DNA of 64,000 nucleotides from Thalassomonas sp. RHCl1 (GTDB taxonomy: Bacteria > Pseudomonadota > Gammaproteobacteria > Enterobacterales > Alteromonadaceae). Where the stretch lies: NCBI RefSeq assembly GCF_947387555.1, contig NZ_CANDNZ010000001.1, forward strand, positions 310,001-374,000, in the 5' to 3' direction. Each line of letters starts with the position of its first letter. Position 1 is the first letter of the stretch. The notes under the pieces are model-generated. The model made no database searches and was not told where the DNA came from. It worked only from the letters and a program-made list of their open reading frames with translations. Both the position numbers and the translations under genes were made by a program. Positions 2,732 through 51,100 of the stretch are shown here, piece after piece.

Positions 2732-2971
2732 GTTCAGGACGAACTGTATGCTGTGATGACATGGATGTCAAAGAACAGCAATGTTCAGGACGAACGGTCA
2801 ACTTACATGTTCCTGACGTAAGTTAAGTACCTACAGTCCCTGTAGGCAATGCTGCGGTGACATGGATGTCAAAAAGCAGTGATGTTCAGGACGAAGGGTC
2901 AACTTACATGTTCCTGACGTAAGTTAAGTACCTAGAGTCCCTGTAGACAAAGCTGGGGAGACATGGATGCC
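2732..2971 (+). repeat. GGA-hairpin repeat array, 101-bp period
   Basis: The stretch between the terminator and slyD is a tandem array with a 101-bp period (about 2.4 units). Each unit has GTTCAGGACGAAC (2732, 2783, 2884), TGACATGGATGTCA (2757, 2858; a decayed form at 2960), a longer inverted repeat ACTTAC...GTAAGT (2801-2823, 2902-2924) and CCTACAG TCC CTGTAGG (2830-2846; decayed at 2931). The first two fold as small stems with AGGAC or ATGGAT loops closed by C-G. That is the CAGGA(U/C)G and CANGGANG pattern of CsrA sites, here six times on the plus strand. The two longer palindromes put GGA in their loops on the minus strand instead. The CsrA link is inference. Confidence 0.75.
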
Positions 2972-2986
2972 AACAAGTAGCAAGCA

Positions 2987-3475
2987 TTAATGGCTATGGC
3001 CGCAGCCGCCTTCACCGTGCACATGGCCGTGGCTTAATTCTTCTTCGGTAGCATCTCTGACTTCAAGAATTTCCACATCGAAATTGAGATCTATGCCGGC
3101 TAACGGGTGATTGCCGTCTACGGTGATTTCATCATCACTGATATCGATGACAATAACGGTTTGTTCGCCGTCATCTGTGGTTGCCCGCAGCTGAGTGCCG
3201 ACATCCAGATCTTCTATGCCTTCAAACATAGCTTTAGGAACATTCTGGACAAAGTTATCGTTGCGCTCGCCATAAGCTTGCTCTGCTTTTACCGCCACTT
3301 CAAATTTATCGCCAACCTGGTGATCGAGCAGGGCATCTTCCAATCCAGGGATCAGGTAACCTGTGCCATGAATAACCGCCAAAGGCTGGTGGTCGTATGA
3401 GCTGTCTATTAAAGTGCCTTCACTGTCGGATACGGCATAATGCATGACAACGACTTTGTTGCTACTAATTTTCAT
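2987..3475 (-). CDS. slyD: FKBP-type peptidyl-prolyl isomerase SlyD
   Basis: A 162-residue cytoplasmic FKBP with the SlyD layout: an FKBP half (GTGYLIPGLEDALL around residues 37-50), an inserted-flap chaperone domain in the middle (AYGERNDNFVQNVPK onward), return to FKBP (HPLAGIDLNFDVEI around 123-136), then a short His/Cys metal-binding tail HGHVHGEGGCGHSH. SlyD catalyses prolyl isomerisation, acts as a chaperone and delivers nickel to hydrogenase maturation in relatives. The tail is shorter than in Escherichia coli. An AGGAA lies 6 bases before the ATG. It is convergent with the DUF1232 gene; ygfZ lies just upstream on the same strand. Confidence 0.93.
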   Translation of the reverse strand: MKISSNKVVVMHYAVSDSEGTLIDSSYDHQPLAVIHGTGYLIPGLEDALLDHQVGDKFEVAVKAEQAYGERNDNFVQNVPKAMFEGIEDLDVGTQLRATTDDGEQTVIVIDISDDEITVDGNHPLAGIDLNFDVEILEVRDATEEELSHGHVHGEGGCGHSH

Positions 3476-3520
3476 GTGAATTCCTGGTTTGTTAAGTGGA
3501 TTAAAATATTTGTGTTCTGT

Positions 3521-4486
3521 TTATTTGGCCAACGAATAGGGTAAGGCTGCAACAGACAATGAAGTCTGCGGCTGTTCTTTTATTCTCAGCGGCGTATCGG
3601 CGTCTATATCTGTTGCCAGCACCGCCTGGATATAGGTTTGTCCGCTATCTGCCCGGTAAGCTGTCAAAATATCACCCGCCTTGCGCCAGTTTTCACCCAG
3701 TTGCTGTTCGATAATGTTGCCGGATTGCGCCGAGCCCTGCTGTGTTGTCAGTGAGTATAAGGCGCGCTTATTTTTCCCCAGGTATTGCATTCTGGCAACG
3801 GTTTCTTGTCCCAGATAGCAGCCTTTGGTAAAGCTGATGCCGTTAATGGCTTGCAGGTTCAACATTTGCGGCACATATTCGAGTAGGGCGTGTTGCTCCA
3901 GTATAGGAAATCCTTCGGTTATTTCTATTAAATCCCATAAAGGGGAGGAGTAAAGGGGTAATGCCAGAGGCTCTGTGGCTTTAGTGAGCTGCTCCTGCGG
4001 GCCGATAAGCAAATAGCGTGTGATTTCTCCCGGCAGGTAAACCAAAGTAGTATCGCCGTTTTGTACCACAGGGGTCATGTTGTCCGGCACTTGCGGGTAG
4101 ATTTTTTGGATCTCTGCTTCTGCTTTGTTGCCGGCCAAGGCATAAAAGCTAAGGTCATTACTCTCGTTAATTTCGACCTTGGCAAAAACACCAAATTTTT
4201 GTAATTCCGCCAGCGATGCCGCCAGGCTGCTTTTGGGTTGCAGCAACAGGTGTGCGCCTTTGTGGTTAAGGAGGCGGAACACCGAGAGCACTTTGCCCTT
4301 GGCATTGCAGTGGGCGCCGATTGTCAGGCTATGTTCATGGATTTCGTTGACATCACAGGTCACCTGGCCTTGCAGATATTTACTTTGCTCTTCCCCGGAT
4401 AAGGAGATGGCACTGTAATCGGTTAATGCTATAAGAAAAGCGTCGGGAAGTTGCTCAATGGCCGGCAGGGAAGGATCAATAGTCAT
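3521..4486 (-). CDS. ygfZ: tRNA-modifying / Fe-S folate-binding protein YgfZ
   Basis: A 321-residue member of the GcvT-like folate-binding family. The signature KGCYLGQE with the conserved Cys is present at about residue 220, inside the FTKGCYLGQETVARMQY segment. YgfZ proteins use tetrahydrofolate and support a subset of Fe-S enzymes, including the tRNA methylthiotransferase MiaB. It is divergent from sdhE with a 129-bp gap, a classic gammaproteobacterial arrangement (ygfZ / sdhE-ygfX). The length matches the family and I see no defects. Confidence 0.93.
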   Translation of the reverse strand: MTIDPSLPAIEQLPDAFLIALTDYSAISLSGEEQSKYLQGQVTCDVNEIHEHSLTIGAHCNAKGKVLSVFRLLNHKGAHLLLQPKSSLAASLAELQKFGVFAKVEINESNDLSFYALAGNKAEAEIQKIYPQVPDNMTPVVQNGDTTLVYLPGEITRYLLIGPQEQLTKATEPLALPLYSSPLWDLIEITEGFPILEQHALLEYVPQMLNLQAINGISFTKGCYLGQETVARMQYLGKNKRALYSLTTQQGSAQSGNIIEQQLGENWRKAGDILTAYRADSGQTYIQAVLATDIDADTPLRIKEQPQTSLSVAALPYSLAK

Positions 4487-4615
4487 AGAGTTTTAAAAGC
4501 CTGGAAATTAATTACTATAGCAATGAGGGCAATTAAAAAAAAAACAAGGATCAGCCGCGTTTTTTCTTGGTGAAATTGATAGAATATGGCTAATGTTAAA
4601 CTTTTATGGTGTTTT

Positions 4616-4867
4616 ATGTCGTTGGTTAATAAAAAAGCCCGTTTGAAGTGGGCGTGTCGTCGTGGAATGTTAGAGCTGGATGTGCTGTTTATGCCTTTCG
4701 TGGATGAGGCTTATGATCAACTCTCTGAGCAGGAACAAGTCATTTTTGAGCGCTTGTTAACCTGTGAAGATCCTGAGCTTTTTGCCTGGTTTATGGGACA
4801 TGAAAGTTGTGAAGATCCTGAGCTTAACAGCATGGTGCAGCTTATTCTGAACAGGGTAAAAGTTTAA
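4616..4867 (+). CDS. sdhE: FAD assembly factor SdhE
   Basis: An 83-residue SdhE/YgfY protein. The hallmark RGMLELD (RGxxE) is at about residues 16-22, and the AWFMG segment follows. SdhE helps attach FAD covalently to the succinate dehydrogenase flavoprotein in the cytoplasm. I chose ATG 4616 because it gives the usual MSLVNKKARLKWACRRG N-terminus; an upstream in-frame ATG at 4586 would add ten residues not typical of the family. No strong ribosome-binding site is visible. The ygfX-like gene follows after 33 bases. Confidence 0.9.
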   Translation: MSLVNKKARLKWACRRGMLELDVLFMPFVDEAYDQLSEQEQVIFERLLTCEDPELFAWFMGHESCEDPELNSMVQLILNRVKV

Positions 4868-4900
4868 GTTTTAACTTCGTTGATGGGGGCGGGACTGGCG

Positions 4901-5446
4901 ATGAGTGACAGTTTTGGCCCCTGGAATTGCCTGGTTAATACTCGCTCCCCTTTTGTCATCTCTATTTTTTCTTCCGTTAATCACTACCGCCAATACGCCG
5001 TGATCAGCTTTGTTATTGTTATCCTGCTGTTGCCGGTATCGGCACAAGCCTTGATGTTCACTGCCTTTATTGTCTTTTGTCTGCTCTGCCTGTATGCGTG
5101 TTTTTTATCAGGAAATTTAAAAAAAGATAGCCGCAGGTTAACCTGTTCTTTGATGATATCCGCTGATGGCTATTGCCGTTTTGACCAGGGACCGGTGCTG
5201 AAATTAGCCACTAGCAGCCGGATAGGATTTGCCGGTTGCTGGCTGATTTTAACGGACGAGCTCTTTGAAATTCCCGTTGGGTCAAGCAGGAGAAAGACAG
5301 TGGCAGCTAAGCCTGTTATCAGCAGTTATTTTATCTTTAAAAACCGTGTATCAGCGCAAGACTTTGCCCGCTTAAGCCGCGTGGTCCTGTCATTAAAGCA
5401 GCATCAGGCAAGGGAAAAGGGCCTGGAACGTCAGACCCTGAATTAA
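4901..5446 (+). CDS. YgfX-like membrane protein
   Basis: A 181-residue protein directly after sdhE, where ygfX (cptA) usually sits. It has two adjacent hydrophobic helices (about residues 33-50 and 52-70), then a soluble domain containing a GCWLILTDE segment, which is the YgfX topology. YgfX has been described as an inner-membrane partner of SdhE and proposed as a toxin affecting cytoskeletal proteins; neither role can be shown here. Similarity is mainly topology plus context. The start is uncertain: ATG 4901 has a GGGA 7 bases upstream, but TTG 4880 and ATG 4883 are also in frame. Confidence 0.65.
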   Translation: MSDSFGPWNCLVNTRSPFVISIFSSVNHYRQYAVISFVIVILLLPVSAQALMFTAFIVFCLLCLYACFLSGNLKKDSRRLTCSLMISADGYCRFDQGPVLKLATSSRIGFAGCWLILTDELFEIPVGSSRRKTVAAKPVISSYFIFKNRVSAQDFARLSRVVLSLKQHQAREKGLERQTLN

Positions 5447-5492
5447 CGGTTTGCTGTGCTTTATTGCCTTAGCTGTCTGCTGAGCGATTGGC

Positions 5493-7100
5493 TTACTTGT
5501 TGGCAGACTCCGGGTTTAGTATGGTTGCTTTGGCCTCGGGGCTGAGCTCGGGATAATCTAAGGTATAATGTAAGCCCCGGCTTTCTTTTCGCTGCATCGC
5601 GCTGCGGATAATGAGTTCGGCAACCTGCACTAGGTTTCTTAATTCCAGCAAATTATTGCTGACTTTAAAGTGACGGTAATAGTCACTTATTTCCCTTTGT
5701 AATAACTCTACCCTGTGTAATGCCCGCTCTAAACGTTTTGTGGTCCGGACGATGCCGACATAATCCCACATAAATAACCTTAACTCATGCCAGTTATGCT
5801 GGATCACTACTTCTTCATCTGAGTCTGTGACCCGGCTTTCATCCCAGGGAGGCAGGCACTTGGTGCCATGGCAATGGGGTAAAGACTGGCTGATATCCAG
5901 TGCTGCTGCCCGGGCAAAGACCAGGCATTCAAGCAAAGAGTTGCTGGCCATGCGGTTGGCGCCATGCAGTCCGGTATAGGTGACTTCGCCGATACCGTAG
6001 AGGTTGGCGATATCGGTGCGGCCATGTTTATCCACCATCACACCGCCACAGGTATAGTGGGCCGCCGGTACGATCGGGATCGGTTGTTGGGTCATATCTA
6101 TCCCCAGGGAAAGGGTTTTTTCATAGATGGTCGGGAAGTGTTGTTTGATAAAGTCGGCGGACTTATGGCTGATGTCCAGGTACATGCAGTCGGCGCCTAA
6201 ACGTTTCATCTCATAATCAATTGCCCGGGCCACTATATCCCGCGGTGCCAGCTCGGCCCTTTCATCGAATTCTGGCATAAAGCGGCTACCGTCGGGACGC
6301 CTGAGGATAGCGCCTTCGCCCCTTAAGGCTTCGGTCAGCAGAAAAGTACCGGCATCCGGATGAAACAGGCAAGTGGGGTGGAATTGGTTAAATTCCATAT
6401 TGGCCACCCGGCAGCCGGCGCGCCAGGCCATGGCGACCCCGTCGCCGCTGGCGACATCCGGGTTGGATGTGTATTGATAGACTTTACTGGCACCGCCTGT
6501 GGCAAGTATGGTTTTGTGGGCAAAAACGCTTTCTACCTTTTCACTGTTGCGGTTCCAGATATAGGCACCGATGCAGGATTTTTCTTTGCCTTCTTGGCCC
6601 TGATCTCTGATCAGATCAACGGCATTGTAACGTTCAAAAATGCGGATACGGTTATGCTGGCGCACTTTATCGACTAACGTGGTTTGCACCGCCTGTCCGG
6701 TGGCGTCTGCGGCGTGGAGAATGCGTCTGTGGCTGTGGCCGCCTTCGCGGGTCAGGTGATAACGTATATTACCGTCATGATTTTTTTCCTGATCAAAATC
6801 AACACCTTGCTCTATCAGCCATTCCAGGCAGGCTTTGGCATTTTCTGCGGTATATTTGACCGTGTCGGCTTCACATAAACCGGCGCCGGCGATCAGGGTG
6901 TCTGAAACATGGGAGTCGATGCTGTCATTTTTGTCAAAGACTGCGGCTATGCCTCCCTGGGCATAATAGGTGGAACCTTCATTGATGGGCCCCTTGCATA
7001 ATACGATTACGTCGGCGGTTTTGGCCAGGTGTAATGCCAGGGTTAATCCCGCTGCGCCACTGCCGATAATTAAGACGTCACAATTGTGTTGTTTATTCAT
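5493..7100 (-). CDS. nadB: L-aspartate oxidase
   Basis: A 535-residue flavoprotein of the succinate dehydrogenase/fumarate reductase family. The N-terminal dinucleotide motif is [16 protein letters not shown] (about residues 11-26), the substrate-site stretch [13 protein letters not shown] lies near residue 120, and [10 protein letters not shown] near residue 350. It oxidises aspartate to iminoaspartate, the first step of de novo NAD synthesis with NadA. nadB beside rpoE in divergent orientation is common in gammaproteobacteria. Length and motifs are complete. Confidence 0.96.
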
Positions 7101-7218
7101 ATATCTTTGATTTTCAGGTACCCTATACTTAGTTGGTGAATATTAACGCTTAATCGTCATGCAGAACAGTAATAAAGGGATGATATAAAATAAATTCAAA
7201 TTATTTTTGATTTTATTA

Positions 7219-7245
7219 GAACTTTTTCGCACATGCACAGTCCTA
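7219..7245 (+). promoter_or_regulatory. Candidate sigma-E promoter of rpoE
   Basis: GAACTT at 7219-7224 is separated by 16 bases from TCCTA at 7241-7245. This approximates the sigma-E consensus (GGAACTT, 15-16 bases, TCTGA-like) and lies 65 bases before the rpoE start, so it would give the autoregulation known in relatives. The -10 match is imperfect. Confidence 0.5.
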
Positions 7246-7309
7246 CTTGATGCGTTTGCCATGAGCCAGATGTTATTTATTTTATTGGTTATTAGGAGAT
7301 ATGGCTCGA

Positions 7310-7882
7310 ATGAGCGAACAAAACGTCGACCAGGAACTGGTTGAGCGGGTGCAACGTGGTGATAAAAACGCTTACAACCTGCTAGTGAGAAAATATCAGC
7401 ATAAAGTTGCCAATTTGGTTTCCCGTTATGTCAAAAATCATAGTGATGTAGCGGATATAGTCCAGGAAGCTTTTATTAAAGCGTATCGCGCCTTGCCTAA
7501 TTTTAGAGGGGATAGTGCGTATTACACCTGGCTTTACCGGATTGCGGTAAATTGTGCGAAAAATCATATGGTCGCCAAAGGGCGTAAACCGCCGGGATCA
7601 GATGTCGAAATTGAAGATGCAGAATTTTATGATGGTGGTGAGGCCTTAAGAGAAAATGCTTCACCGGAGAAACTTTTACTAACGCAAGAAATCAAAAAAG
7701 TTATATTCGATACCATAGAGCAATTACCTGAAGATTTGCGCACCGCGATTAATCTCAGGGAACTTGAGGGATTAAGTTATGAAGAAATTGCCACTATTAT
7801 GGAGTGTCCCGTCGGGACGGTAAGATCACGTATTTTCAGGGCGCGTGATGCAATAGATAAAAAAATCCGGCCGCTACTTTAA
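7310..7882 (+). CDS. rpoE: RNA polymerase sigma-E factor
   Basis: A 190-residue ECF sigma factor. Region 2 includes NLLVRKYQHKVANLVSRYV and DIVQEAFIKAYRAL, and region 4 has EGLSYEEIATIMECPVGTVRSRIFRAR. It is close to Escherichia coli RpoE. It directs the cell-envelope stress response and is held by RseA at the inner membrane. I prefer ATG 7310 (MSEQ..., AGGAG 11 bases upstream) over ATG 7301, which sits only 2 bases from the AGGAG; homologues start with MSEQ. It is first in the rpoE-rseA-rseB-rseC operon. Confidence 0.96.
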   Translation: MSEQNVDQELVERVQRGDKNAYNLLVRKYQHKVANLVSRYVKNHSDVADIVQEAFIKAYRALPNFRGDSAYYTWLYRIAVNCAKNHMVAKGRKPPGSDVEIEDAEFYDGGEALRENASPEKLLLTQEIKKVIFDTIEQLPEDLRTAINLRELEGLSYEEIATIMECPVGTVRSRIFRARDAIDKKIRPLL

Positions 7883-7903
7883 GGCTATATTAAAGGTGTA
7901 AAT

Positions 7904-11871: not shown

Positions 11872-11881
11872 TAGGGAACTT

Positions 11882-12802: not shown

Positions 12803-12807
12803 TAGTG

Positions 12808-16807: not shown

Positions 16808-19681
16808 TTAAGATTCACTGAGTATTTTCAAGGTTTGCGGTGCCTGGTGCAAAACCTTATCCAGATGTTCGAAAAACTCAAAAAATTCCGGTTCCAGCGC
16901 TTCCGCGCTTTCCCCGTTCTTCAATGCCGTCTCAATTTGATGGGTTATTTTCCCCAGGTTGGGTACCCCGGTATAACAGCAGGCACCGTTTAATTTGTGG
17001 ATCAGGGTTTTTAAACGCTCGGTATCCTGGTTATTGAGGGCATATTCAATATTGACCTTAGTTTCCGGTAAACTCTGCAGTAAGCCATCAAGCATTTCTT
17101 TGGCTAATTCGCTGTTATTGCCGGTGCGTTGCAGGGCCAGTGACCAGTTGATCACTTCTATTGAGCCAAAATCATAAGGGTTTGCTTCTGCCTGCATTGG
17201 CTCGGGGGTGATCACATCAATCACTTCCGGGGGCGTTTCTGCCCTTAGCTGGATGTCACTGCTTTGTGAAAGCTTATCATCTGATGATGCTTCATCGGGG
17301 CGAAGAGCAAAAAGTTCCAGGTTGCCGTACTCGTATAAGGTATGGCGCAACATGGTTTCATCCAGGGGTTTAGTGATGTAGGAGTCAAAGCCTTCCACCA
17401 GCAATTTTTCTTTTTCACTGCTTAAGGCATGGGCGGTGACGGCGATAATGGCGGTATCTTCATTAAAAGTATTGCTTCTGATGGCCTTTAATGCGGTAAC
17501 CCCGTCCATGACCGGCATTTGGATATCCATAAAGATCAAGGCAAACTTTTCATTCTGACATAAAGTGACTGCCTCCTGGCCGTTGCTGGCGGTGATAACC
17601 TCGCTAACCTGCTCAAGCAGCAGCGCCTTGATCAGTTTTAAGTTGGCGTCATTATCATCTACCGCCAATACCTTGATAGGGATTTTTTTACTTGCTACTT
17701 CTGGCAGCAGTTTAACGCCGTGAGCCGGTTGTGGCAGCAGGACTTTGCATAATCGGCTGGGGGTAATAGGTTTGCTTAAACAGCTGACGGCGCCATTGGC
17801 AATCAGGGCTTCCTGCAAATTAGGGGAGTTGCTGTTGATGGCTAAATGTATTGCCGAAATCTGCGGCTTCACGGATGCAATCAATTTTTTCAGATCCGTT
17901 AATGCGCTCGGGGTGACATCATGGCCGATCAGGGCAAAGTCATAACAGTTGTTCTGCGCCAAAGCATTGCTGAACTGCTCAAGGCTGGTCACAGGTGTGA
18001 CCTTCATTTTCCAGCCGGCCAATATTTCACTGGTGGCCATACGGCTGTGGGTGATGGGCTCGTAATAGAGGATATTCTTGTCTACCAGGGCCTTGGTATC
18101 GAGCATGGAAGTCATCGGCAGGGGGTTGACCTCACACTGGAAGGAGAACCAGAAGGTGGAGCCACGGTTTTCTTCGGTGATAAAGCCGATATCGCCGTGC
18201 ATTTCCCGGGCAAGGCGTTGCGAGATCACTAAGCCTAAGCCAGTGCCGCCGTATAGGCGGGTGATGCTCTTATCTGCCTGGCCGAAGGCTTCAAAAATAC
18301 TCTTTTGCTGCTCGCTGTTCATGCCGATGCCGGTATCTGTGACCGTGATTTTAAAAACCGCTAATTTTTCATCGATATGCTCGCTGTCGATATCGATGGA
18401 GACCAGGCCTTTTTCGGTAAACTTAATCGCGTTATTGGCCAGGTTAATGATGACCTGTTTGATCCTCATGGCATCGCCGATCAGGAAATCAGGCAGCTGC
18501 TGGGCAATACGCAGTGACAGTTCCAGGTTTTTCTGGTGGGCAATAGGCGCCAGCAAGGTCAGGGTCTCTTCCACGCTGTCCCTTAAGGAAAACGGGATAT
18601 TTTCAATGATCATTTTATCGGCATCGAGTTTGGAAAAATCGAGAATGTCATTGATGATGGCCAGTAAGCTGTTGGCGGATCTTTCTATGGTTTGCAGATA
18701 ATCCCGCTGGGTTTCGCTTAACGGGGTTTTCAGCACCTGACGGGTAAAACCGATCACGCCATTTAGGGGAGTGCGTAATTCATGACTCATATTGGCCAAA
18801 AACTCGGATTTTACCCGGTTGGCGTCTTGTGCCTTACGTTTGGAAATATCCAGTTCAACGTTTTGGATTTCAAATTGCTCCAGGCTTTCCCGTAAATCTA
18901 TGGTGGCCTGATCTATGCTCCTTTGCATTTCGTCATGGTAATCCCCTAAGGATTGGGCCATGGCGTTGATGCCGTTTTTTAAAAAGTTGAGCTCGCCGAT
19001 CAACTGGCCGCTGACCCGGCTTTCCAGTTTTCCTTCCCGGATGCGGTCAACGGCGTTGACCATGGAAGTGACCGGGCGGGTCACATTTTTGATCAGCTGA
19101 AAAGCAAAGATCGCACTGAGCAGGGAGCCGAAAATCACGATGGAAAAAGCGATTAAAAACTGGCTTTGTTGCCTGTATTTGATTTTATCCCGGTCGATTT
19201 GCATGGCAATATAACCGACAACTGTCGGGTTGCCCTTTAATTCTTCAAGGTTTTTTACCTGATGGGTTTCATCTATGATCGGGGTGCGGAAAATCAGGTA
19301 ATTATCCAGTTTTTCCAAATGGGTATTTTGCGGGATATTTTTCCCGGCTTTAATGCGCATGACATTGGTATCACCATGATAGGCGCTGGTGACAAATATC
19401 TGGTTGTCTTTGGTGAAAACGGCGATGCTTTTTACTATATTGGCATGGCTTCTGTGGGCAAAGCCTATCAGGTGGCGTAATTTTTCCCTGTCTTTATTGA
19501 TAATAGGATCGGCACTGGCAATGGCGATAGGTTCAATAATGCTTTGTGAGCGTAAGGTGAGAAACTCTTCCAGTTCAACATAACGGCTATATGAAAAGTA
19601 ACCGGCTATTCCTAAGCCAATTAATGTCGTCGGTATTATTGTAAGCAGAACTACCCAGTCCTTTAGACTTATTTTATGCAT
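16808..19681 (-). CDS. barA: Hybrid sensor histidine kinase BarA
   Basis: A 957-residue tripartite sensor. An N-terminal membrane helix (about 10-30), a periplasmic sensor region and a second helix (about 170-195) lead to HAMP (about 195-250), the H box SHELRTPLNG with H300, and an ATPase domain (NLANNAIKF, TGIGM, GGTGLGL). A degenerate receiver-like part follows, then a true receiver with phospho-Asp D719 in FMDIQMPVMDG and an HPt domain with H895 in IHKLNGA. In relatives BarA phosphorylates UvrY/GacA/SirA, which drives CsrB-type RNAs that titrate CsrA. It is divergent from rlmD, as in Vibrio and Escherichia coli. This matters because possible CsrA-binding repeats occur in the window. Confidence 0.93.
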   Translation of the reverse strand: MHKISLKDWVVLLTIIPTTLIGLGIAGYFSYSRYVELEEFLTLRSQSIIEPIAIASADPIINKDREKLRHLIGFAHRSHANIVKSIAVFTKDNQIFVTSAYHGDTNVMRIKAGKNIPQNTHLEKLDNYLIFRTPIIDETHQVKNLEELKGNPTVVGYIAMQIDRDKIKYRQQSQFLIAFSIVIFGSLLSAIFAFQLIKNVTRPVTSMVNAVDRIREGKLESRVSGQLIGELNFLKNGINAMAQSLGDYHDEMQRSIDQATIDLRESLEQFEIQNVELDISKRKAQDANRVKSEFLANMSHELRTPLNGVIGFTRQVLKTPLSETQRDYLQTIERSANSLLAIINDILDFSKLDADKMIIENIPFSLRDSVEETLTLLAPIAHQKNLELSLRIAQQLPDFLIGDAMRIKQVIINLANNAIKFTEKGLVSIDIDSEHIDEKLAVFKITVTDTGIGMNSEQQKSIFEAFGQADKSITRLYGGTGLGLVISQRLAREMHGDIGFITEENRGSTFWFSFQCEVNPLPMTSMLDTKALVDKNILYYEPITHSRMATSEILAGWKMKVTPVTSLEQFSNALAQNNCYDFALIGHDVTPSALTDLKKLIASVKPQISAIHLAINSNSPNLQEALIANGAVSCLSKPITPSRLCKVLLPQPAHGVKLLPEVASKKIPIKVLAVDDNDANLKLIKALLLEQVSEVITASNGQEAVTLCQNEKFALIFMDIQMPVMDGVTALKAIRSNTFNEDTAIIAVTAHALSSEKEKLLVEGFDSYITKPLDETMLRHTLYEYGNLELFALRPDEASSDDKLSQSSDIQLRAETPPEVIDVITPEPMQAEANPYDFGSIEVINWSLALQRTGNNSELAKEMLDGLLQSLPETKVNIEYALNNQDTERLKTLIHKLNGACCYTGVPNLGKITHQIETALKNGESAEALEPEFFEFFEHLDKVLHQAPQTLKILSES

Positions 19682-27187: not shown

Positions 27188-29665
27188 TTGCGTAAGTTTA
27201 TAAGTTTACCCTGGAAGGCGATAACGCTGACACTAGGTGCCATGCTGGTTATTACCCTGACCTTGACGATTTTTTCGGTGCTCCAGCTGCAGGAGGAGTT
27301 CGACCAGCGTCAGCAGGAAAAAAAGTCCGCCGCTAAGCTGATTTACAGTTATCTGCAAAAAATTTCCAATGACAAACGTATCTTATGGCTGACCACGTTA
27401 AGCTCCCAACACCTGGTGAAAAATAATGATTACCGGGCGTTTGATCAGGCGGTGCAGCATCAGTTTGATTTAGACGAGTTGCGTATTGACTCCGTTTGGG
27501 TCTTAGATGAGCAGGGGCAGCAAGTATATGCCAGCAGCGCAGAAGCCAACGGCGAGGTCAGGCAAGTGGCCAGGCAGGTGTTTGAGCAGCAGTCGGTGGC
27601 TGAACTGATTTATTGCGAGCAGGAAAAAAGCAATTGTTACCATATCGTTGCTATGCCGGTGATGACCTCTGCCAATGAAATGACGGCCTTGATCAGCCGG
27701 GCCAATCTCAGCGATCTCCTGTTTACTTTTTTAGCGCTAAATGAAAATACCCGCCTGGCGATTGTCAATGTGCCCCTGGTTAACAGCGAGCAGCACACCA
27801 ACTTAAAGGCGATGTCGATTTTAACCCGCTCAAACGATGATAAAATCGTGCCGATAATCGAGTCACTGGCGCAGGAACTGACTTTAAGTGCATTGAAAAA
27901 GAGCGTCAGTACAGAGTTTGGTGAGGAGCATTTCTCCATCAGCCTGTTTGAACTCCAACCCGGCAGCAAAGACGGCAACTATGTGATGCTGATTGATGAT
28001 ATCACCCAGTACCGGCAAACAAACGAAGCGTTTCAGCGGGCGATTGTGATAATTGCCACCATCATTTTTGTGTTGATTGCGGTCGTGGTTTTTGTACTGA
28101 CCCGGCGCTCGAGCCAACGTTTGCTTAAACTGGCGGCGGATTTACCGTTACTGGCGGAAAAGCGCTTTGATGAATTTCGCCGGCGTAAATTTTCCGGGTT
28201 CAGGTTAACCAGCGATGAACTGGATATTTTACACAGCTCCGCCTCGGATCTGGCGGATCAACTTGAAGAATTGCATTTTAAAATTGAGCAAAATACCCGG
28301 GAGCTGGAAAATATCGCCATGTATGATCTGCTTACCGGTTTACCCAACCGTAATATGCTCAATTTCCAGCTGAAAAAGAATCTGGCCACCTTATCCCGCA
28401 GCCAGGATTATGTCGCGTTATTATTCCTTGACCTCGATGACTTTAAAAAAGTGAATGACAGTCATGGCCATAATATGGGGGACTTTTTGCTGGAAGAGGC
28501 CGCCCGCCGTTTGCGTATGTCTATCCGCGATACCGATATAGCTTGTCGTTTTGGTGGCGATGAATTTGTTATCGTGCTGCCCCAGGTACAAAAGTGGGAA
28601 GATGTTGAGCGGGTTGCGGACAAGTTGCTGCAGGCCTTTAAACAGCCGATCCAAATTGAAGACCACCGCTTTTATGTGTCTACCAGTATCGGCGGTGCGC
28701 TGGCCAAAGACAACAGCATCACGGCGGAAGACTTGATCCGTAACGCCGACATGGCCATGTATGAAGCCAAAGATAACGGCGGTAACTGTTACCAGATTTA
28801 TGATGCCGGCATGTACCAGCGGGTTGCCCATAAGGTATTGCTGGAAACCGAGGTCAGGGAGGCTATTGTCCAGGGGCAGTTCAGTTTGAGCCTGCAGCCC
28901 CAGGTAGAGATCAATAGTGGACGTTTATTTGGTTTTGAAGCCCTGCTGCGCTGGAATCACCCCAAGCGCGGCCTGGTATCTCCGGATGAATTTATTCCGG
29001 TACTGGAAAATTCCAAGCATATGATCGAGCTGGGGTACTGGGTAATACGTCACAGCATTGAATTATTAAAACAGCTTAATGAAGCCGGTTATACCGGGAT
29101 CAGTATCGCGATTAACCTTTCTGCCGGACAATTTGTCGACCCCGGCCTTTACCGCTTTTTAGTGGAACAGGCGGAAGCTTTTGGTGTTGACGCCGGCGCG
29201 ATAGAGCTGGAACTCACCGAACGCACTTTAGTAGAAGACATAGATAAAACGCTGGAAACCATGCATAAATTGCGTGACCGAGGTTTTTCATTTTCTATCG
29301 ACGATTTCGGCACCGGTTATTCATCGTTAAGCTACCTGAAAAAAATGCCGGTGGATTGCATAAAAATTGATAAGTGTTTTGTTTCCGGCATGCTTGATAA
29401 CCAGGCAGATATGCAAATTGTGATGTCGACCATCGCCATGGTGCGTAACTTAGGAATGAAGGTGATTGCCGAAGGGGTGGAAAACCGGGCGCAGCTAAGG
29501 TTCTTAAAAAGCGAACAATGTGATCTGGTGCAGGGGTATTTATTCAGCCGCCCCATCTGTGAAACGGTGTTGATGGAAGAGTTAAAAACCAAGGTTAGCC
29601 GCGGGGTTTGGCTCGAAGCGGCGGAGATGAGTAAACAGCACCTGTTAGAGTCCGGCCATAACTAA
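27188..29665 (+). CDS. Membrane GGDEF-EAL cyclic-di-GMP enzyme
   Basis: An 825-residue protein with helices at about 10-32 and 285-305 flanking a periplasmic sensor of about 250 residues, then a HAMP-like linker, GGDEF (G456-F460) and EAL (E584-L586). Both catalytic sites look intact: the inhibitory-site RDTD lies five residues before GGDEF, and the EAL part keeps NLSAGQF, ELTERT, IDDFGTGYSSL and EGVEN. It could make or degrade cyclic-di-GMP. The start must be TTG 27188 (an ATG at 27184 is out of frame and stops at once), 4 bases after the barrel stop; translation is probably coupled. The periplasmic domain may read the state of the two preceding products. Confidence 0.9.
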   Translation: MRKFISLPWKAITLTLGAMLVITLTLTIFSVLQLQEEFDQRQQEKKSAAKLIYSYLQKISNDKRILWLTTLSSQHLVKNNDYRAFDQAVQHQFDLDELRIDSVWVLDEQGQQVYASSAEANGEVRQVARQVFEQQSVAELIYCEQEKSNCYHIVAMPVMTSANEMTALISRANLSDLLFTFLALNENTRLAIVNVPLVNSEQHTNLKAMSILTRSNDDKIVPIIESLAQELTLSALKKSVSTEFGEEHFSISLFELQPGSKDGNYVMLIDDITQYRQTNEAFQRAIVIIATIIFVLIAVVVFVLTRRSSQRLLKLAADLPLLAEKRFDEFRRRKFSGFRLTSDELDILHSSASDLADQLEELHFKIEQNTRELENIAMYDLLTGLPNRNMLNFQLKKNLATLSRSQDYVALLFLDLDDFKKVNDSHGHNMGDFLLEEAARRLRMSIRDTDIACRFGGDEFVIVLPQVQKWEDVERVADKLLQAFKQPIQIEDHRFYVSTSIGGALAKDNSITAEDLIRNADMAMYEAKDNGGNCYQIYDAGMYQRVAHKVLLETEVREAIVQGQFSLSLQPQVEINSGRLFGFEALLRWNHPKRGLVSPDEFIPVLENSKHMIELGYWVIRHSIELLKQLNEAGYTGISIAINLSAGQFVDPGLYRFLVEQAEAFGVDAGAIELELTERTLVEDIDKTLETMHKLRDRGFSFSIDDFGTGYSSLSYLKKMPVDCIKIDKCFVSGMLDNQADMQIVMSTIAMVRNLGMKVIAEGVENRAQLRFLKSEQCDLVQGYLFSRPICETVLMEELKTKVSRGVWLEAAEMSKQHLLESGHN

Positions 29666-29685
29666 CCGGACTTATATATACAGGA

Positions 29686-29815
29686 TGTATGGTATTTAGC
29701 GGGTTCATGGACGAACAGGAGCTTATATACAGGATGCATGGTCAGCTTGCCGGCTCCCGGAGCAAGCTAAGTACTTGCATCCTGGCAAACAATGTAGCGG
29801 ATTCATGGACGGGCA
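29686..29815 (+). repeat. GGA-hairpin array in 3' region of the GGDEF-EAL gene
   Basis: Four hairpin-like motifs of the same family as the arrays at 2732 and 50914: ATACAGGATGTAT (29688-29700), GTTCATGGACGAAC (29703-29716), CAGGATG (29730-29736) and CATGGACG (29804-29811). Between them lies AGCTTGC...GCAAGCT, another stem. Nothing resembling a terminator lies between the GGDEF-EAL stop and the array; a likely one follows at 29831. So the array is in the 3' untranslated part of that message. CsrA binding is inference. Confidence 0.7.
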
Positions 29816-44411: not shown

Positions 44412-44456
44412 CGATAGATACCTTAGCGGTAAGTATCAGTACACTCTGTAGTTTTT

Positions 44457-44490: not shown

Positions 44491-44536
44491 TGTATGAAGG
44501 CTTGGTATTAAGTGGCTTTATGGATACCGAGAAACT
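44491..44536 (+). repeat. Decayed copy of the 49-bp GGA-hairpin repeat
   Basis: GGTAT..AGTGGCTT.ATGGAT...GA..AACT (44504-44536) aligns to part of the recA-side unit with about 8 differences in 33 bases. The ATGGAT loop is kept, while the pairing arms have decayed (TTTATGGATACC). It directly follows the rpoS terminator, matching the placement of the array after recA. Confidence 0.6.
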
Positions 44537-45147: not shown

Positions 45148-45610
45148 GATGGATACCTTCTTTATCTGTTGTGGTTAGCTTCCTCTGAGTGTTGCTATCA
45201 CTTAGGGGGAGCGCTTGGTTTATCTGTTAGTTCTCTTTGTTAAGCACCTCCGCTGGTGAATTATTCACCTATTAGTCATAGTACAAAAGGCTGTAAAAAT
45301 CAACAGTGATGGCTGGTTCTTGGTTATAAAGTGAAATAGCTTTTTAGTTTTTTCAGCAGCAGTGAGTGAGGTTTTTTTGGGGAGATTTAGAAAATCACTT
45401 GTCATCAATTATATTTCGAAACACTTTCCCGCATTTTGCCTCGACTACAACATAAATTCATTAAGCACTAAGGGGGTGAAGTGTGCAAATCGGATAAAAG
45501 TCACTAATTTTTATTTGAGCCCGTTTTCTTCCCCAAGCCGCTAATTTACTGCAGAAACCCGTCTATACTTAGCTGCGAAGTACCCACTCATAAAAACCGA
45601 GGACATATTC
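45148..45610. other. Intergenic region, no gene seen
   Basis: A 463-base AT-rich gap between divergent units (the small unknown genes and the porin gene). It should hold both promoters. No ribosome-binding-site-backed frame or recognisable operator was found. Confidence 0.5.
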
Positions 45611-46771
45611 ATGGACAGGAAAATAAGTTGCTCGTTAGTAGTCGGATTCGCCGTTTTAATCTCTCCCGTAAGCAATGCAGAAAACCTCCCCAGTGCGGAG
45701 GAAATGTGGCAGGCAATACAAGATTTACAAGCAGAAAACAAACGATTGCGTAAGGTACTAAGTTCATCCCCCGGCAATAAGGTTCAAGCATCTGGGCATG
45801 ATAAAAATACTGAGACTCAGGTAAAGGAGGATAGTGGATTTAGCTTTAAATTTGGCCGGTTTATCCGTGCCGATGCCGGGCATGGTGATCGTTACGGCGA
45901 TGGCCATGGTGATGATCGGCTAGGCATCACTAAGGCGGCACTTGCCATCACCAGTGAATATGAGAATATCACTGGCGTGTTTGTGGTCGGTACCGAAATA
46001 ACCAGTCTTGACGATCCCAATGAAGATGGCGATGTTGATATTAAAGATGCCTTCATTGTCATTAAAGATTTTGGCTGGCAAGGCTTTGATGTCACTATGG
46101 GGGCGCAACCCCTGTTGATAGGTTTAAAGCCTGAAGGCTATCCGGGAGACCATAGTATTCAAGGCAGTATCGAGTATGGCGCCGGTGATGCTTTTGCTTT
46201 TTCCAATCAGGCCGGTCCGGCATTAACCGCCGATTGGCGCTATAGTGATACCCAGCGCATCAGAGTGGGGGTCTTTGATCAAAAAGACTATTTCAACTCG
46301 GGCTCTGTCGATGTCACCCTTGCCGAAGAGGGCTCTGATATCTCAGATAATTATTATTTGCAGTGGACCGGGAGCAGCCTGTTTGGCTCCGGCTTTTATG
46401 CCAACCTGGTTTATGAGTCACGCTATCTGGGGGGCATGATAAATAATAATGAAGATATATGGGCAGCCGGTTTGGGCTGGCAACAAGGAGCGGTTGATTT
46501 ATCTTTGGAATATGTTTCTTTGGATAAAGCCTTTAATGCTACCTTAAAGGATGAGAGCTACCTTATTGCCGAGTCTTCTTATGCTGTGAGTGAAAAAACC
46601 GGTATCTACTTTGATTATTCGGCGGCCGATGAACTTGATTTGAAAACCTACCGTCTCGGTTTGAATTATTTTTATAATCCACACACCACCTTTTCCGTTG
46701 AATATAGTGAAGATGACTTACCCGGTGAGGATCTGGAGAGTTTAGATTTACGGGTTAGTTTGCATTATTAA
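45611..46771 (+). CDS. Porin-like outer-membrane protein with coiled coil
   Basis: A 386-residue exported protein: a signal peptide (LVVGFAVLISPVSNA, about 23 residues), a short coiled coil (SAEEMWQAIQDLQAENKRLR, about 28-47) as in phosphate-selective-type (OprO/OprP-like) trimeric porins, a polar linker, then barrel strands to a terminal Tyr (LRVSLHY). GDGHGDD-type acidic turns may bind calcium. The solute is unknown. It is not clearly related in detail to the two barrels paired with PstS-like genes. It is monocistronic and convergent with mutS. Confidence 0.75.
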   Translation: MDRKISCSLVVGFAVLISPVSNAENLPSAEEMWQAIQDLQAENKRLRKVLSSSPGNKVQASGHDKNTETQVKEDSGFSFKFGRFIRADAGHGDRYGDGHGDDRLGITKAALAITSEYENITGVFVVGTEITSLDDPNEDGDVDIKDAFIVIKDFGWQGFDVTMGAQPLLIGLKPEGYPGDHSIQGSIEYGAGDAFAFSNQAGPALTADWRYSDTQRIRVGVFDQKDYFNSGSVDVTLAEEGSDISDNYYLQWTGSSLFGSGFYANLVYESRYLGGMINNNEDIWAAGLGWQQGAVDLSLEYVSLDKAFNATLKDESYLIAESSYAVSEKTGIYFDYSAADELDLKTYRLGLNYFYNPHTTFSVEYSEDDLPGEDLESLDLRVSLHY

Positions 46772-46845
46772 CCTGCATTATCGGTTTATACAAGGGCTGG
46801 TTAAAGATTGAATATTCGCCCTTGTTTTCCGTGTTTTAAAAAATA

Positions 46846-46887
46846 GAAATCCCGCCGCAGAAGTTTTATTATCTGTGACGGGGTTTC
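46846..46887. terminator. Convergent terminator between porin and mutS
   Basis: GAAATCCCGCCGCAG pairs, with a G-U and one mismatch, to CTGTGACGGGGTTTC around a T-rich loop. It lies between the two convergent genes. Confidence 0.65.
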
Positions 46888-46915
46888 ATGTTTACAAGTC
46901 AGTCATCTGCTGGTG

Positions 46916-49477
46916 TTACAGCTGTTCCTTGAGGTTAAAGAGTAAATCCAGTGCCTGTCTGGGGCTTAAGTCATTAATATCTGTGGCGGCTAAAGTATCG
47001 ATCACCGGGTGGTTATTATCCATCAGCGGCAGCTGCTCGAAGCTGGCCTCGGTTGCGGGCAATATCGAGGGCGCCTGCTGATTTTCCAGTTCGCTCAATC
47101 TTTGTTTCGCCCTGTGGATCACGGTTTTCGGCACCCCGGCAAGCTGAGCTACCTGCAAGCCGAAACTCTTGCTGGCGGCCCCTTCCTGCACTGCATGCAT
47201 AAAAATAATATTGTCGTTATGTTCAACCGCATCCAGGTGCACATTGGCCAGGCTGGGGATTTGTTCGGCCAGCAGGGTCAGTTCGAAATAATGGCTGGCA
47301 AACAGGGTAAAGGCGCGGGTTTTATTGGCGAGCATTTCGGCGCAGGCCCAGGCCAGGGATAAACCGTCATAGGTACTGGTGCCGCGGCCGATTTCATCGA
47401 GCAAGACCAGGCTTTTATCTGTGGCATTATGGAGAATATTGGCGGTTTCCGTCATTTCTACCATAAAGGTCGAGCGGCCGCTGGCGAGATCGTCGGAGGC
47501 GCCGATACGGGTGAAAATGCGATCCACCATGCCGATTTTGGCCGTGCTGGCCGGTACATAACAGCCGATATGGGCCAAGAGTACGATTAAGGCGGTTTGG
47601 CGCATATAGGTTGATTTACCGCCCATGTTCGGGCCGGTAATGATCAGCATTTTCCTGTCCTGGTTTAAGGCAACCGGGTTGGCGATAAAGGCATCTTCCG
47701 TCATTTGCTCTACTACCGGGTGGCGGCCGGCTTCTATTTCGACCCCGGGTTTGTCGCTTAAGACAGGTTTGACATAATTTAAGGTTTCCGCTCTTTCGGC
47801 GAAGGTATTAAGGACGTCCAGCTCTGCCAGGCCCTGGGCCAGCTGTTGTAATTGCGCCAGTTCCGGCAAGACTTTGTCGAAAAGCTCGTCGTATAAGCGT
47901 TTTTCCAGCGCCAGGAATTTACTCTGGGCGCTGAGTACGGTTTCTTCGTGCTGCTTCAGCTCTTCGGTAATATAACGTTCGTTGTTTTTCAGGGTCTGGC
48001 GGCGGATATATTCCGGCGGCACATCGCCGGAGGAGGCGCGGCCCACTTCGATAAAGAAGCCGTGCACCTTGTTATAGCCGACTTTCAGGCTGTGGATGCC
48101 GGTGCGGGCTTTTTCCCTTTCCTCTATTTGGGCGAGGAAGTCGGTGGCGCCGTCGCTTAAATCCCTTAACCTGTCCAGCTCCTGGTGATAACCGGGAGCA
48201 ATTACGCCGCCGTCGCGGATCAGTACCGGCGGATTGTCGACTATCGCCTGTTCCAGCAAGTGCTGGATTTGCGGCATAGGCTTAGTATCCCGTGCCAGTT
48301 GCAATAAATAATCTTTCGGGCTGACCGCCAATACCTGTTGTATTTCATCCAGTTGCTGCAGGGCATTACGCAAGCGGGCGAAATCCCGCGGCCGGGCGGA
48401 TCTTAACGCAATACGGGAGACGATACGCTCAACATCCCCTAAAGGTTTGAGCAAGTCGAAAAGCTCTTCCTGCAGGTCTTGCGCTAAGATATCGCTGATG
48501 GCATTTTGCCTGTTAGTCAGGGTACGCAGCTCCCTCAGCGGGAAGTGCAACCAGCGTTTTAACAGCCGTGATCCCATGGGGGTGGCGCTTTTATCCAAAA
48601 TGGCTGCCAGGGTATTTTCCTGGCCGCCGGAGAGATTGATGGTTAATTCCAGGTTACGCCGGGTGGCGGCATCGAGCACTACCCCGGTGGCGGAAGACTC
48701 GCTGATAATGGCGCGGATATGGGGCAGGGCGGTGCGCTGGCTGTCTTTGACATATTGGAACAGGCAGCCGGCGGCGGCCAGGCCACGGGTTTGCTCGCTC
48801 ACGCCAAAACCCGATAGTTCCTTGGTGCCAAATTGTTTGTTGAGTAATTTTACCGCGGTATCGAGATCGTATTCCCAGTCGGGGCGACGGCGCAGGCCCT
48901 TTCTGTGGTCGATTAACGCCATTTCGGAGAAAGACTCGGGATAAAGCAATTCTGCCGGCGATAAACGTTGTAATTCTGCCTGTAACTGTTCGCTGCTTCT
49001 GGGCTCGGTTAAGACAAAGCGACCGCTGGTCATGTCGAGATAAGCTAAACCAAAGCCCTGAGCCGTTTCGGCGATGGCGACAATCAGGTTATCCTGCCGG
49101 TCCGATAATAATGCCTCGTCGCTGACGGTACCCGGGGTGACGACTTTTACTACTTTACGCTCTACCGGGCCTTTGCTGGTAGCGGGATCGCCAATTTGCT
49201 CACAAAGGGCCACCGACTCACCCAGCTGGACTAATTTTGCCAGATAAGTTTCCACCGCATGATAAGGTACCCCCGCCATAGGGATGGCATTGCCGCCGGA
49301 TTTGCCCCGGGCGGTGAGGGAGATATCTAATAAATCCGAGGCTTTTTTGGCATCGTCGAAAAACAACTCATAAAAATCTCCCATGCGGTAGAACACCAAT
49401 ATATGGGGAAACTCAGCTTTAATGGTCAGATACTGGCGCATCATCGGGGTATGGGAGGAAAAATCTGTCGTCGTCAT
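46916..49477 (-). CDS. mutS: DNA mismatch repair protein MutS
   Basis: An 853-residue mismatch-recognition ATPase. The mismatch-binding Phe-X-Glu is in [13 protein letters not shown] near residue 35; Walker A is [13 protein letters not shown] (about 615-627), with [12 protein letters not shown] as Walker B/D loop. The helix-turn-helix end [17 protein letters not shown] matches the family. It is divergent from recA, with the SOS box between them, a common gammaproteobacterial layout. Confidence 0.97.
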
Positions 49478-49745
49478 TGCTCTTGGATTATTTGTTAACT
49501 GGCATTAAATATGCGGGAAATTATTTGCCGGGAATTATGCCACAGCCTCAGGGGAGAATCTTTAGTTATTACCAGGCAGATTGCCTTAAATTATTTATCC
49601 AGTAAAAACACCTGTATAAAAACACTGTGGCTGTGTTATCAACAAGAGGGGAGTCATTAAAAGATGAAAATAATTTTACTTTATTAACAGCGCGTTAGTT
49701 CGGTTTTGCCCACTAAGGATGAATTTAAATCACGAAAGGACTTGA

Positions 49746-49765
49746 TACTGTACGACTATACAGTA
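49746..49765 (+). promoter_or_regulatory. LexA (SOS) box of recA
   Basis: TACTGTACGACTATACAGTA is an almost ideal LexA operator (TACTG-N10-CAGTA), 51 bases before recA. It indicates LexA-controlled recA and lies within the mutS-recA gap. Confidence 0.92.
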
Positions 49766-49815
49766 TACTGGCGTCATTGAAACAGATTAAACCTATCGTA
49801 ATTGTGGAGCGATAA

Positions 49816-50844
49816 ATGGACGATAACAAAGAAAAAGCACTTTCAGCAGCGTTAAGCCAGATTGAACGTCAGTTTGGTAAAGGCTCAATCATGAAACTGG
49901 GTGAAAACCGCAGCATGGAAGTCGAAACTATTTCTACCGGATCCCTGGGTCTGGATGTCGCCTTAGGTGCCGGTGGCTTGCCTTTAGGACGTGTTGTTGA
50001 AATTTACGGTCCGGAATCAAGTGGTAAAACCACGTTAACCCTGGAAGTGATTGCCGAAGCCCAGCGTAACGGTAAAATTTGTGCTTTCGTTGATGCCGAA
50101 CACGCCCTTGACCCGATTTATGCTGAAAAACTCGGTGTTAACATCAATGATCTTTTAGTGTCTCAGCCGGATACCGGTGAGCAGGCTCTAGAGATTTGTG
50201 ACATGTTAACCCGCTCCGGTGCTATCGATGTTATCGTGGTCGACTCGGTGGCGGCTTTAACGCCGAAAGCGGAAATCGAAGGAGACATGGGTGACTCTCA
50301 CATGGGTTTACAGGCCCGTATGTTATCCCAGGCGATGCGTAAGTTAACCGGTAACCTGAAGCAGTCAAATACTATGCTGATCTTCATCAACCAAATCCGG
50401 ATGAAAATTGGTGTGATGTTCGGTAGCCCGGAAACCACCACAGGTGGTAATGCCTTGAAATTCTATGCTTCGGTTCGTTTAGATATCCGTCGTATCGGTG
50501 CGGTGAAAAGCGGCGATGAAATTGTCGGTAACGAAACCCGGGTTAAGGTGGTTAAAAACAAAATTGCGCCGCCGTTTAAACAAGTGGAATTCCAAATCCT
50601 TTACGGTGAAGGCATCAACAACCTGGGCGAATTAATCGACCTGGGCGTACAGCACAAAATGGTAGAAAAAGCCGGTGCCTGGTACAGCTATAACGGTGAG
50701 CGTATTGGTCAGGGTAAAGCAAATGCCACTAAATATTTGGATCAGCACCCGGAAATGGCCCAGGAAATTGACGGCCGCCTGCGCGAGTTGTTGTTAACCA
50801 GACCTGTTGACAGCGAAGCTCAGGAAGAAAACGCTACTGAGTAA
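49816..50844 (+). CDS. recA: Recombinase RecA
   Basis: A 342-residue RecA. Walker A is GPESSGKTT (about residues 67-75), loop L2 lies in the [17 protein letters not shown] region, and the C-terminal acidic tail is short ([10 protein letters not shown]). It promotes strand exchange and LexA self-cleavage. A LexA box precedes it and a terminator follows; recX, its usual neighbour in Escherichia coli and Vibrio, is not next to it. A 49-bp repeat array starts right after the terminator. Confidence 0.98.
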
Positions 50845-50885
50845 TCTAGTTGGCTGTTAAGTCAGGTAGACTAAAGCTTAATATT

Positions 50886-50912
50886 AAACCACTGCCCCGG
50901 CAGTGGTTTTTT
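50886..50912 (+). terminator. recA terminator
   Basis: AAACCACTGCC pairs with GGCAGTGGTTT around a tight C-rich loop, followed by T residues. Confidence 0.88.
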
Positions 50913-50913
50913 A

Positions 50914-51100
50914 TATACAGGATGTATGGTATGCAGTGGCTTCATGGATGAAGAAGAACTGCTATACAGGATGTATGGTATGCAGTGGCTTCATGGATGA
51001 AGAAGAACTGCTATACAGGATGTATGGCATGCAGTGGCTTCATGGATGAAGAAGAACTGCTATACAGGATGTATGGTATGCAGTGGCTTTAAGGATGCAG
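50914..51100 (+). repeat. 49-bp GGA-hairpin tandem array after recA
   Basis: Units start at 50914, 50963, 51012 and 51061 with an exact 49-bp period; the fourth is partly decayed. Each has TATACAGGATGTAT (a GGA loop on a 5-bp stem) and CTTCATGGATGAAG (a perfect 4-bp stem with ATGGAT loop closed by C-G), the latter inside an outer GCAGT...ACTGC stem. This gives four CAGGATG and three CATGGATG motifs on the recA strand. These are exact CsrB-repeat and CANGGANG forms. No dedicated promoter or terminator was found. Protein-binding is inference. Confidence 0.85.

Follow-up and report, generated by a model that had tools for sequence, protein, structure and literature searches.

A 64,000-nucleotide stretch of the Thalassomonas sp. 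RHCl1 genome (C1:310001-374000 of 7.56 Mb in 39 contigs; this genome is labelled G000, and the stretch is called the window below) contains three intergenic arrays of short hairpins that display GGA in their loops, a feature of binding sites for the protein CsrA. We find that these arrays belong to a dispersed family of repeats built from a folded unit, in which the GGA loops are conserved while the arms covary, and that they usually lie directly behind intrinsic transcription terminators. At roughly even confidence, we read the family as terminator-attached, partly mobile repeats whose read-through RNA binds CsrA and acts as a dispersed, low-level decoy.

We counted hairpins in the window, requiring four or more Watson-Crick pairs in the stem and a loop of the form C-A(N)GGAN-G. 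The + strand contained 14 and the − strand none, compared to a mean of 0.9 (standard deviation of 0.9, maximum of 3) on both strands of 40 first-order shuffles. When three pairs sufficed, the window had 17 hairpins versus 3.5 in shuffles (maximum of 7). Thirteen of the 14 hairpins belong to the three arrays; inspection of the sequence confirmed these at the positions given by an earlier interpretation of the same DNA (the sequence-only reading), and they proved to be part of a larger family. The remaining hairpin (55290-55302) is located inside an open reading frame (ORF) and outside any array. In the whole genome, the pattern TTCATGGAYGAA had 24 sites versus 1 for the reversed control, and TACAGGAYGTA had 63 versus 4 for its control; a pattern that required two CATGGA loops at a distance of 20 bases gave no match. 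The shuffles and the genome-wide pattern counts rule out chance hairpins. Among intergenic hairpins of C1:1-454000 (window included) whose stems have four or more pairs, the commonest 5- to 6-nt loops were CATGGATG (9) and CAGGATG (7), every hairpin being also counted once on the other strand. These loops were not among the commonest in the same region when stems of at least 5 or at least 6 pairs were required, because array stems end at four pairs.

The unit is ~50 nt long and consists of a first hairpin (hp1), a GTAT-bearing linker, and a second hairpin (hp2) carried on an outer stem. The full order is the terminator T-run (often TTTTTTAT), hp1, the GTAT linker, the outer 5′ strand, GG or GA, hp2, ANGA, and the outer 3′ strand. 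Both hairpins have 4-pair stems, with the loop CAGGANG in hp1 and CANGGANG in hp2. Loop C of hp1 and loop C of hp2 are separated by 25 nt in 43 of the 46 pairs counted, which include many tandem copies. The tandem period is mostly 49 to 52 bp, and as many as 12 hairpins with four or more stem pairs occur in a single array. In the own genome, four Watson-Crick pairs form in 29 of 37 hp1 and 28 of 37 hp2 stems. In relatives, the fifth stem position is Watson-Crick in 3 of 67 hp1 and 1 of 67 hp2; 55 of 67 hp1 have a U-G wobble there, and hp2 has mostly G-A or A-A. The internal loop, with 5′ GG or GA opposite 3′ ANGA, was considered by eye as a kink-turn; the idea was dropped, GG being prevalent on the 5′ side.

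The sequence-only reading had also described a 101-bp unit that keeps the loops. The long form, ~100 bp, does contain the short unit; the rest is an additional ~50-bp module placed after hp1, which usually has two hairpins with GGA on the strand opposite to that of hp1 and hp2. One such module, CAGCTTAC..GTTCC..GTAAGCTAAGTACCTGCATCCATGCAGGCAAT, lies at ~2799-2849 of the window, and similar ones are present at loci L399, L402, L404, L075, L054, L072, and L074. In genome G053 (L229, 1277-1366; L230, 1279-1368), an insert of ~28 nt in the hp2 loop (CATGGCACCC...TAATG) resembles a further inserted hairpin.

At least 131 matches to our search model R1, arranged in 72 arrays, were found in the own genome (E≤0.1); match counts are lower bounds, scoring here having covered 150 of 2434 first-look candidates. 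By number of model matches, the largest arrays are C24:9278-9650, C23:18110-18462, C10:109019-109334, and C1:1121797-1122113 (all in G000), with six to seven tandem units each. Both models, R1 and R2, include the T-run before hp1; in R2, the loops are masked with N, while the C-G closure of the training rows is retained. The structural alignment A1 comprises 20 rows from 22 candidate arrays, which were selected because their loops carry GGA and their hp1/hp2 stems have three or more pairs. It omits the off-register rows C1_782169 and C4_362512, and for the C14 array, the second copy (14532) replaces the first (14580), whose outer helix pairs at four of five positions. A further sample was drawn from a wider contig collection with an exact pattern running from the T-run, including TTTTAT, to the linker; it comprises at least 119 stretches and 117 distinct units.

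Covariation shows that the paired structure of the unit is conserved. In 20 units from 20 arrays, 97.7% of the 260 cells of A1 pair; the same units have 70 double-change cells compared to 19.3 in shuffles, and in slid controls 24 to 54% of cells pair. Pairing in hp1 and hp2 was partly selected, and therefore the outer helix is the fair test of structure. When all 22 first units were used, with none dropped or swapped, 104 of 110 outer-helix cells paired and 42 were double changes, while 500 shuffles of these units gave at most 78 pairing cells and 21 double changes. The 117 units of the contig collection, chosen on the hp1 side only, gave 455 of 585 pairing cells and 112 double changes, compared to at most 384 and 55 in their shuffles. 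The shuffles ignore relatedness among the units; the observed and shuffled values are nonetheless far apart. The arms thus change with compensation.

Loop conservation was estimated with the loop-masked R2 model, which was searched in 12 genomes and matched in 11; 60 stretches of eight genomes were chosen by us from the matches listed. Among the 67 units of relatives in these stretches, GGA is kept in 64 hp1 loops and in 64 hp2 loops. The position that the CsrA consensus leaves free does vary in the hp1 loop (T, 40; A, 10; C, 9; G, 6), and the hp2 arms vary widely, one arm position being nearly random (0.05 bits). The contig-collection sample was drawn without selection on hp2, and 90 of its 117 units carry CANGGANG in register. 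At least four of five outer pairs are kept in 78 of the 117, with GGA present in the hp2 loop of 75. The remaining 39 units are broken copies and variants in which the outer stem is shorter, a module is inserted, or the hp2 loop has 5 nt. The claim of the sequence-only reading that arms diverge while GGA loops are kept is thus borne out by the loop-masked model as well as by the orthologous locus of array 1 described below.

The usual upstream neighbor of an array is a terminator, a placement that is new to the present analysis. Sequence was examined for 67 of the 72 arrays, of which 4 overlap an ORF under a simple longest-ORF rule. A stem of at least 7 pairs directly precedes the T-run in 56 of these 67 arrays and in 101 of 118 contig-collection units; control TTTTAT sites had such a stem in 21 of 238 cases in intergenic DNA and in 20 of 646 within coding sequence. 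First units are therefore directly 3′ of an intrinsic terminator in 84 to 86% of cases versus 9% of the intergenic control. A laxer terminator rule passed 100 of 242 intergenic controls, so the stricter rule was used and element sites were removed from the control. The T-run is partly selected by the models and by the pattern; the terminator stem that precedes it is not.

With both neighbors called for 65 arrays, 35 lie between convergent genes, 23 are sense in tandem gaps, 7 are antisense in tandem gaps, and none lie between divergent genes, with the proviso that individual gene assignments around arrays may be wrong. As a baseline, 186 intergenic gaps of at least 100 bp in C1:1-454000 comprise 34 convergent, 101 tandem, and 51 divergent gaps. 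The contig-collection sample is distributed as 49 convergent, 38 sense, 5 antisense, 6 divergent, and 21 undecided. The sequence-only reading had stated that the motifs always lie on the strand of the upstream gene; this holds in the window and, as a bias, in the genome (58 of 65 decidable arrays), and "always" fails for the other 7. In genome G008, a unit lies directly behind the terminator of the sdsR/ryeB small RNA gene (57.3 bits; L204 1180-1480, − strand), and therefore terminators of RNA genes are also hosts.

In the window, array 1 begins directly 3′ of the terminator of a DUF1232 gene (2707-2729, + strand; stem AACGCTC/GAGCGTT followed by a T-run), which was found by the stem script and is absent from the simple terminator scan. 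All features described in this paragraph are on the + strand, except the kinase mentioned at its end. Unit 1 of array 1, located by hairpin and model searches (2732-2782; R2 match at 2724-2785, 62.3 bits), consists of hp1 at 2732-2744 (GTTCAGGACGAAC), a linker containing GTAT, the outer stem 2750-2754/2775-2779, and hp2 at 2757-2770 (TGACATGGATGTCA). Unit 2 (2783-2883; weak R2 match at 2823-2886) is of the long form, with hp1 at 2783-2795, hp2 at 2858-2871, and the module with inverted GGA hairpins between them; a third, long and degenerate unit follows at 2884-2971. Array 2 (29678-29815) consists of an intact unit (hp1, 29678-29690; hp2, 29703-29716) and a decayed long unit. It is the exception to the terminator rule: the stem upstream of it (AGTCCGG/CCGGACT, 29649-29672), around the stop codon of a GGDEF-EAL gene, has a weak T-run only, is negative in both terminator scans, and is not a typical terminator. 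Array 3 (50915-51100) lies behind the recA terminator (50886-50909) and contains three 49-bp units (hp1 at 50915, 50964, and 51013; hp2 at 50940, 50989, and 51038) and a fourth, decaying unit with hp1 at 51062-51074; R2 matches it at 50907-50968 and 51012-51066. By Pfam, the three upstream genes, recA, GGDEF-EAL, and DUF1232, are unrelated in function. A decayed copy proposed at 44491-44536 looks by eye like a single unit, with a T-run and then a sigma-70 family gene upstream, but was recovered neither by R2 (E≤1) nor by R1 (E≤0.1), and so is a possible relic. A hybrid kinase at 16808-19681 (− strand) is BarA-like by domain order (sCache_4, HAMP, HisKA, HATPase, receiver, and Hpt). We see no special link between it and the arrays, and its proximity, invoked by the sequence-only reading, carries no weight, since this is one place among 72 arrays.

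The four genomes of the genus (the own genome and G001 to G003) reveal turnover. At the array 1 locus, an array follows a near-identical terminator in all four. Its hp2 changed in both arms together, from TGACATGGATGTCA to TGGCATGGATGCCA; its outer stem changed from GCTGT/ACAGC to ACTGC/GCAGT, and to GCTGC/GCAGT with one G-U; most loops of the orthologs keep GGA. Array 2 is found in the own genome and is absent from the other three. Array 3 is missing in G001 and also in the recA region of G002, where another gene lies downstream; the stem of the recA terminator is identical in G001 and G003, both of which lack an intact array there. In G027, a metagenome bin, two pairs of identical 50-nt units (L187/L188 and L184/L185) lie in differing flanks. 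Tandem copies inside arrays are often near-identical, and therefore slippage or homogenization must act. Together, the genus comparison and the identical G027 units indicate that copies are gained, lost, and homogenized and that some spread lately.

The family is widespread in marine Gammaproteobacteria. With stricter filters and 91 candidates scored in each genome, 22 of 59 genomes, the own one included, had a match at E≤0.01; the four genus genomes have at least 80 to 93 matches each, and the other positive genomes have 1 to 51. Among the matches listed for the exact hp1-side pattern in the contig collection are Colwellia, Cognaticolwellia, Bowmanella, Neiella, and Psychrobium, as well as Marinobacterium, Amphritea, Bermanella, Reinekea, Dasania, and metagenome bins with other labels.

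We compared the unit with published descriptions of CsrA sites. CsrB repeats read CAGGA(U/A/C)G, and CsrA selected RUACARGGAUGU in systematic evolution of ligands by exponential enrichment (PMC7652899). CsrA sites mostly have four or fewer pairs and six-nt loops, and bridging of two sites spans 10 to 63 nt (PMC7652899). The unit has GGA in a hairpin loop, C-G closure, and a short stem, and its loop-to-loop distance of 25 nt falls in the bridging range. By these sequence-visible features, the element agrees with a CsrA double site, and the observation in the sequence-only reading that the loops fit the CsrA consensus stands. RNA of the GGA strand would thus likely bind CsrA.

The own genome has one CsrA match and two CsrB-like RNAs, at C4:155532-155864 (+) and C3:401421-401768 (−) (L025 and L026; 69 and 64 bits versus a cut-off of 71); a weaker CsrB-like candidate, C4:438858-439127 (−; 30 bits), is not among the arrays. 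In line with a CsrA-binding role, a CsrA match was found in all nine genomes tested, in G027 only a divergent one. The Rfam CsrB model weakly matches three arrays, array 3 among them (29.2, 27.8, and 22.7 bits; E of 8.2e-6, 2.1e-5, and 7.6e-4). Membership in CsrB/RsmB (RF00018) was rejected, the array maximum of 29.2 bits comparing with a gathering threshold of 71, and no Rfam model scored above its cut-off within the window. Like CsrB/RsmB, including Pf1 to Pf3 of Pseudoalteromonas fuliginea (PMC11882849), the arrays repeat GGA in hairpin loops, and an array would offer many CsrA-type sites per RNA provided that it is transcribed as one RNA. Unlike CsrB, a dedicated small RNA with promoter and terminator, they are 72 dispersed arrays mostly 3′ of terminators. 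The TwoAYGGAY family (RF01731; two AYGGAY hairpins), first listed in PMC2864571, has been proposed as a CsrA sponge on motif match (PMC4333381). The hp2 loop AUGGAU fits it, while the hp1 loop (AGGAN, 5 nt) is one base shorter; this family was rejected, with no match up to E of 5 at nine loci or E of 10 for array 3 and four loci.

Sponges inside other transcripts have precedents. The CsrA-binding RNAs RrA, RrB, and RrF of E. coli arise when a first terminator is read through, as would be the case for the arrays; there are three of them, placed between two terminators in rRNA operons, and they form no dispersed family (PMC8144298). The Salmonella fimAICDHF and Campylobacter flaA leaders are CsrA sponges within another transcript, as is proposed here for the arrays. 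The flaA leader has two adjacent CANGGANG hexaloops 21 nt apart, and its mRNA titrates CsrA; these are 5′ leaders of single genes, unlike the arrays (PMC4894983). The open-access literature searched gave no description of the present repeat family, subscription journals being mostly outside that search.

Selection on the GGA strand as RNA should leave more G-U pairs than A-C mismatches. In the outer helix of the 90 in-register contig-collection units, we counted 24 G-U versus 7 A-C (P = 0.003), and over 47 distinct outer-helix patterns, 23 versus 7. For all three helices of model matches, the ratio was 19 to 13 in the own genome and 21 to 7 in relatives, and in the outer helix alone of relatives, it was 12 to 4.

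A number of results weigh against a CsrA-binding decoy. The position of arrays after terminators is itself one: most arrays lie 3′ of a terminator and therefore would be carried by read-through RNA only, and in the three window arrays, a simple sigma-70 consensus scan, a weak test, detected no GGA-strand promoter. The seven arrays placed antisense are opposite to both neighbors. For these reasons, plain decoys in 3′ untranslated regions, as proposed by the sequence-only reading, are not supported: most arrays follow a terminator, and some are antisense to both neighboring genes. The GTAT linker is invariant in 67 of 67 units of relatives, and the internal loop is also conserved; to our knowledge, the linker has no role in CsrA binding. 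Of 19 modules found, 15 formed a second hairpin, and 14 of these display TCC rather than GGA. GGA has also been lost from an hp1 copy of array 1 in G002, which reads CAAGACG, and, by eye, from the loop of the decayed array 3 relic behind recA in G003. The distribution is patchy, with no match at E≤0.01 under the stricter filters in 37 of 59 genomes, and CsrA was found in each element-negative genome tested for it. In the element-rich G027 bin, the sole CsrA match is a divergent 65–amino acid protein (27 bits; L396 624-821, − strand); the usual csrA of this bin may be missing from the assembly or replaced. The G-U excess is modest, counts few pairs, and could also arise from strand-biased mutation; almost no excess is seen in own-genome outer helices (8 to 7) or in the hp2 arms of the contig-collection sample (4 versus 3). 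Last, array 3 RNA is more stable than its shuffles (z = −3.6), but its minimum-energy fold is one long hairpin that pairs units together and not a row of hairpins, and the stability of array 1 RNA is ordinary (z = −1.2).

Several of these observations would be expected of a selfish DNA repeat, akin to miniature inverted-repeat transposable elements or to repetitive extragenic palindromic (REP) sequences, that inserts at terminator T-tracts and whose transposase reads single-stranded DNA hairpins, the likeness to CsrA sites being chance or secondary. The antisense arrays and the identical units at unrelated loci suggest a dispersing repeat, and the placement behind terminators, antisense cases included, the orthologous sites without arrays 2 and 3, the patchy distribution, the conserved GTAT linker, the inverted module, and the array directly behind sdsR in G008 all fit. 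The sequence-only reading had left a DNA-level role possible; this gains weight from the occurrence of identical units at unrelated places and from the absence or decay of two of the three window arrays in the other genomes of the genus. REP elements and bacterial interspersed mosaic elements (BIMEs), served by REP-associated tyrosine transposases (RAYTs), are interspersed intergenic palindromes near gene 3′ ends with tandem and inverted units, and the arrays resemble them in all these respects. Compared on these points, the arrays differ from REP/BIME in that their arms covary and that PF01797 (Y1_Tnp, RAYT), the sole transposase family searched, has no match in six element-bearing genomes (G002, G003, G007, G008, G010, and G027); with one match, containing an internal stop, in the own genome, its counts do not track element counts, and a RAYT/REP origin was rejected. 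A selfish repeat also leaves unexplained the CsrA consensus (free N, four-pair stem, and C-G closure) and the G-U excess of the contig-collection sample. We regard it as possible but doubtful.

An unlikely alternative, in our view, is a local RNA element, in which CsrA or another protein on the read-through RNA alters termination, RNA decay, or expression of a neighbor with no titration. The usual site 3′ of terminators, the bias toward the upstream-gene strand, and the excess of convergent neighbors over baseline gaps (35 of 65 versus 34 of 186) agree with it, while the functionally unrelated upstream genes in the window and the coming and going of two of the three window arrays among close relatives do not. 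Functionless palindromes, kept symmetric by template switching and expanded by slippage, would account for the near-identity of many tandem copies; since loops and the GTAT linker stay constant across orders while arms vary, this explanation is already disfavored and seems to us very improbable.

For transcription of the arrays, CsrA binding, and the decoy role, we infer the following course of events under the terminator-attached decoy reading. RNA polymerase would read through a terminator and produce GGA-strand RNA of the array. In this RNA, hp1 and hp2, with loops at a fixed distance, could together offer one CsrA dimer a pair of docking sites, and tandem copies would supply several such pairs. 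Many loci together would then make a spread-out, low-level decoy of CsrA besides the two CsrB-like RNAs. More tentatively, the family may home on intrinsic terminators as a mobile element whose insertions turn leaky termination into CsrA-sponge RNA, such that free CsrA would sense read-through over dozens of genes.

If the decoy reading is true, CsrA is titrated by many small, dispersed, and movable sponges besides dedicated CsrB-type RNAs, and transposable repeats, transcription termination, and the Csr network are linked. Even if the element acts at the level of DNA, a terminator-tied repeat with compensatory arms and fixed GGA loops remains unexplained. If the read-through RNA does bind CsrA, leaky gene ends genome-wide could help soak up CsrA.

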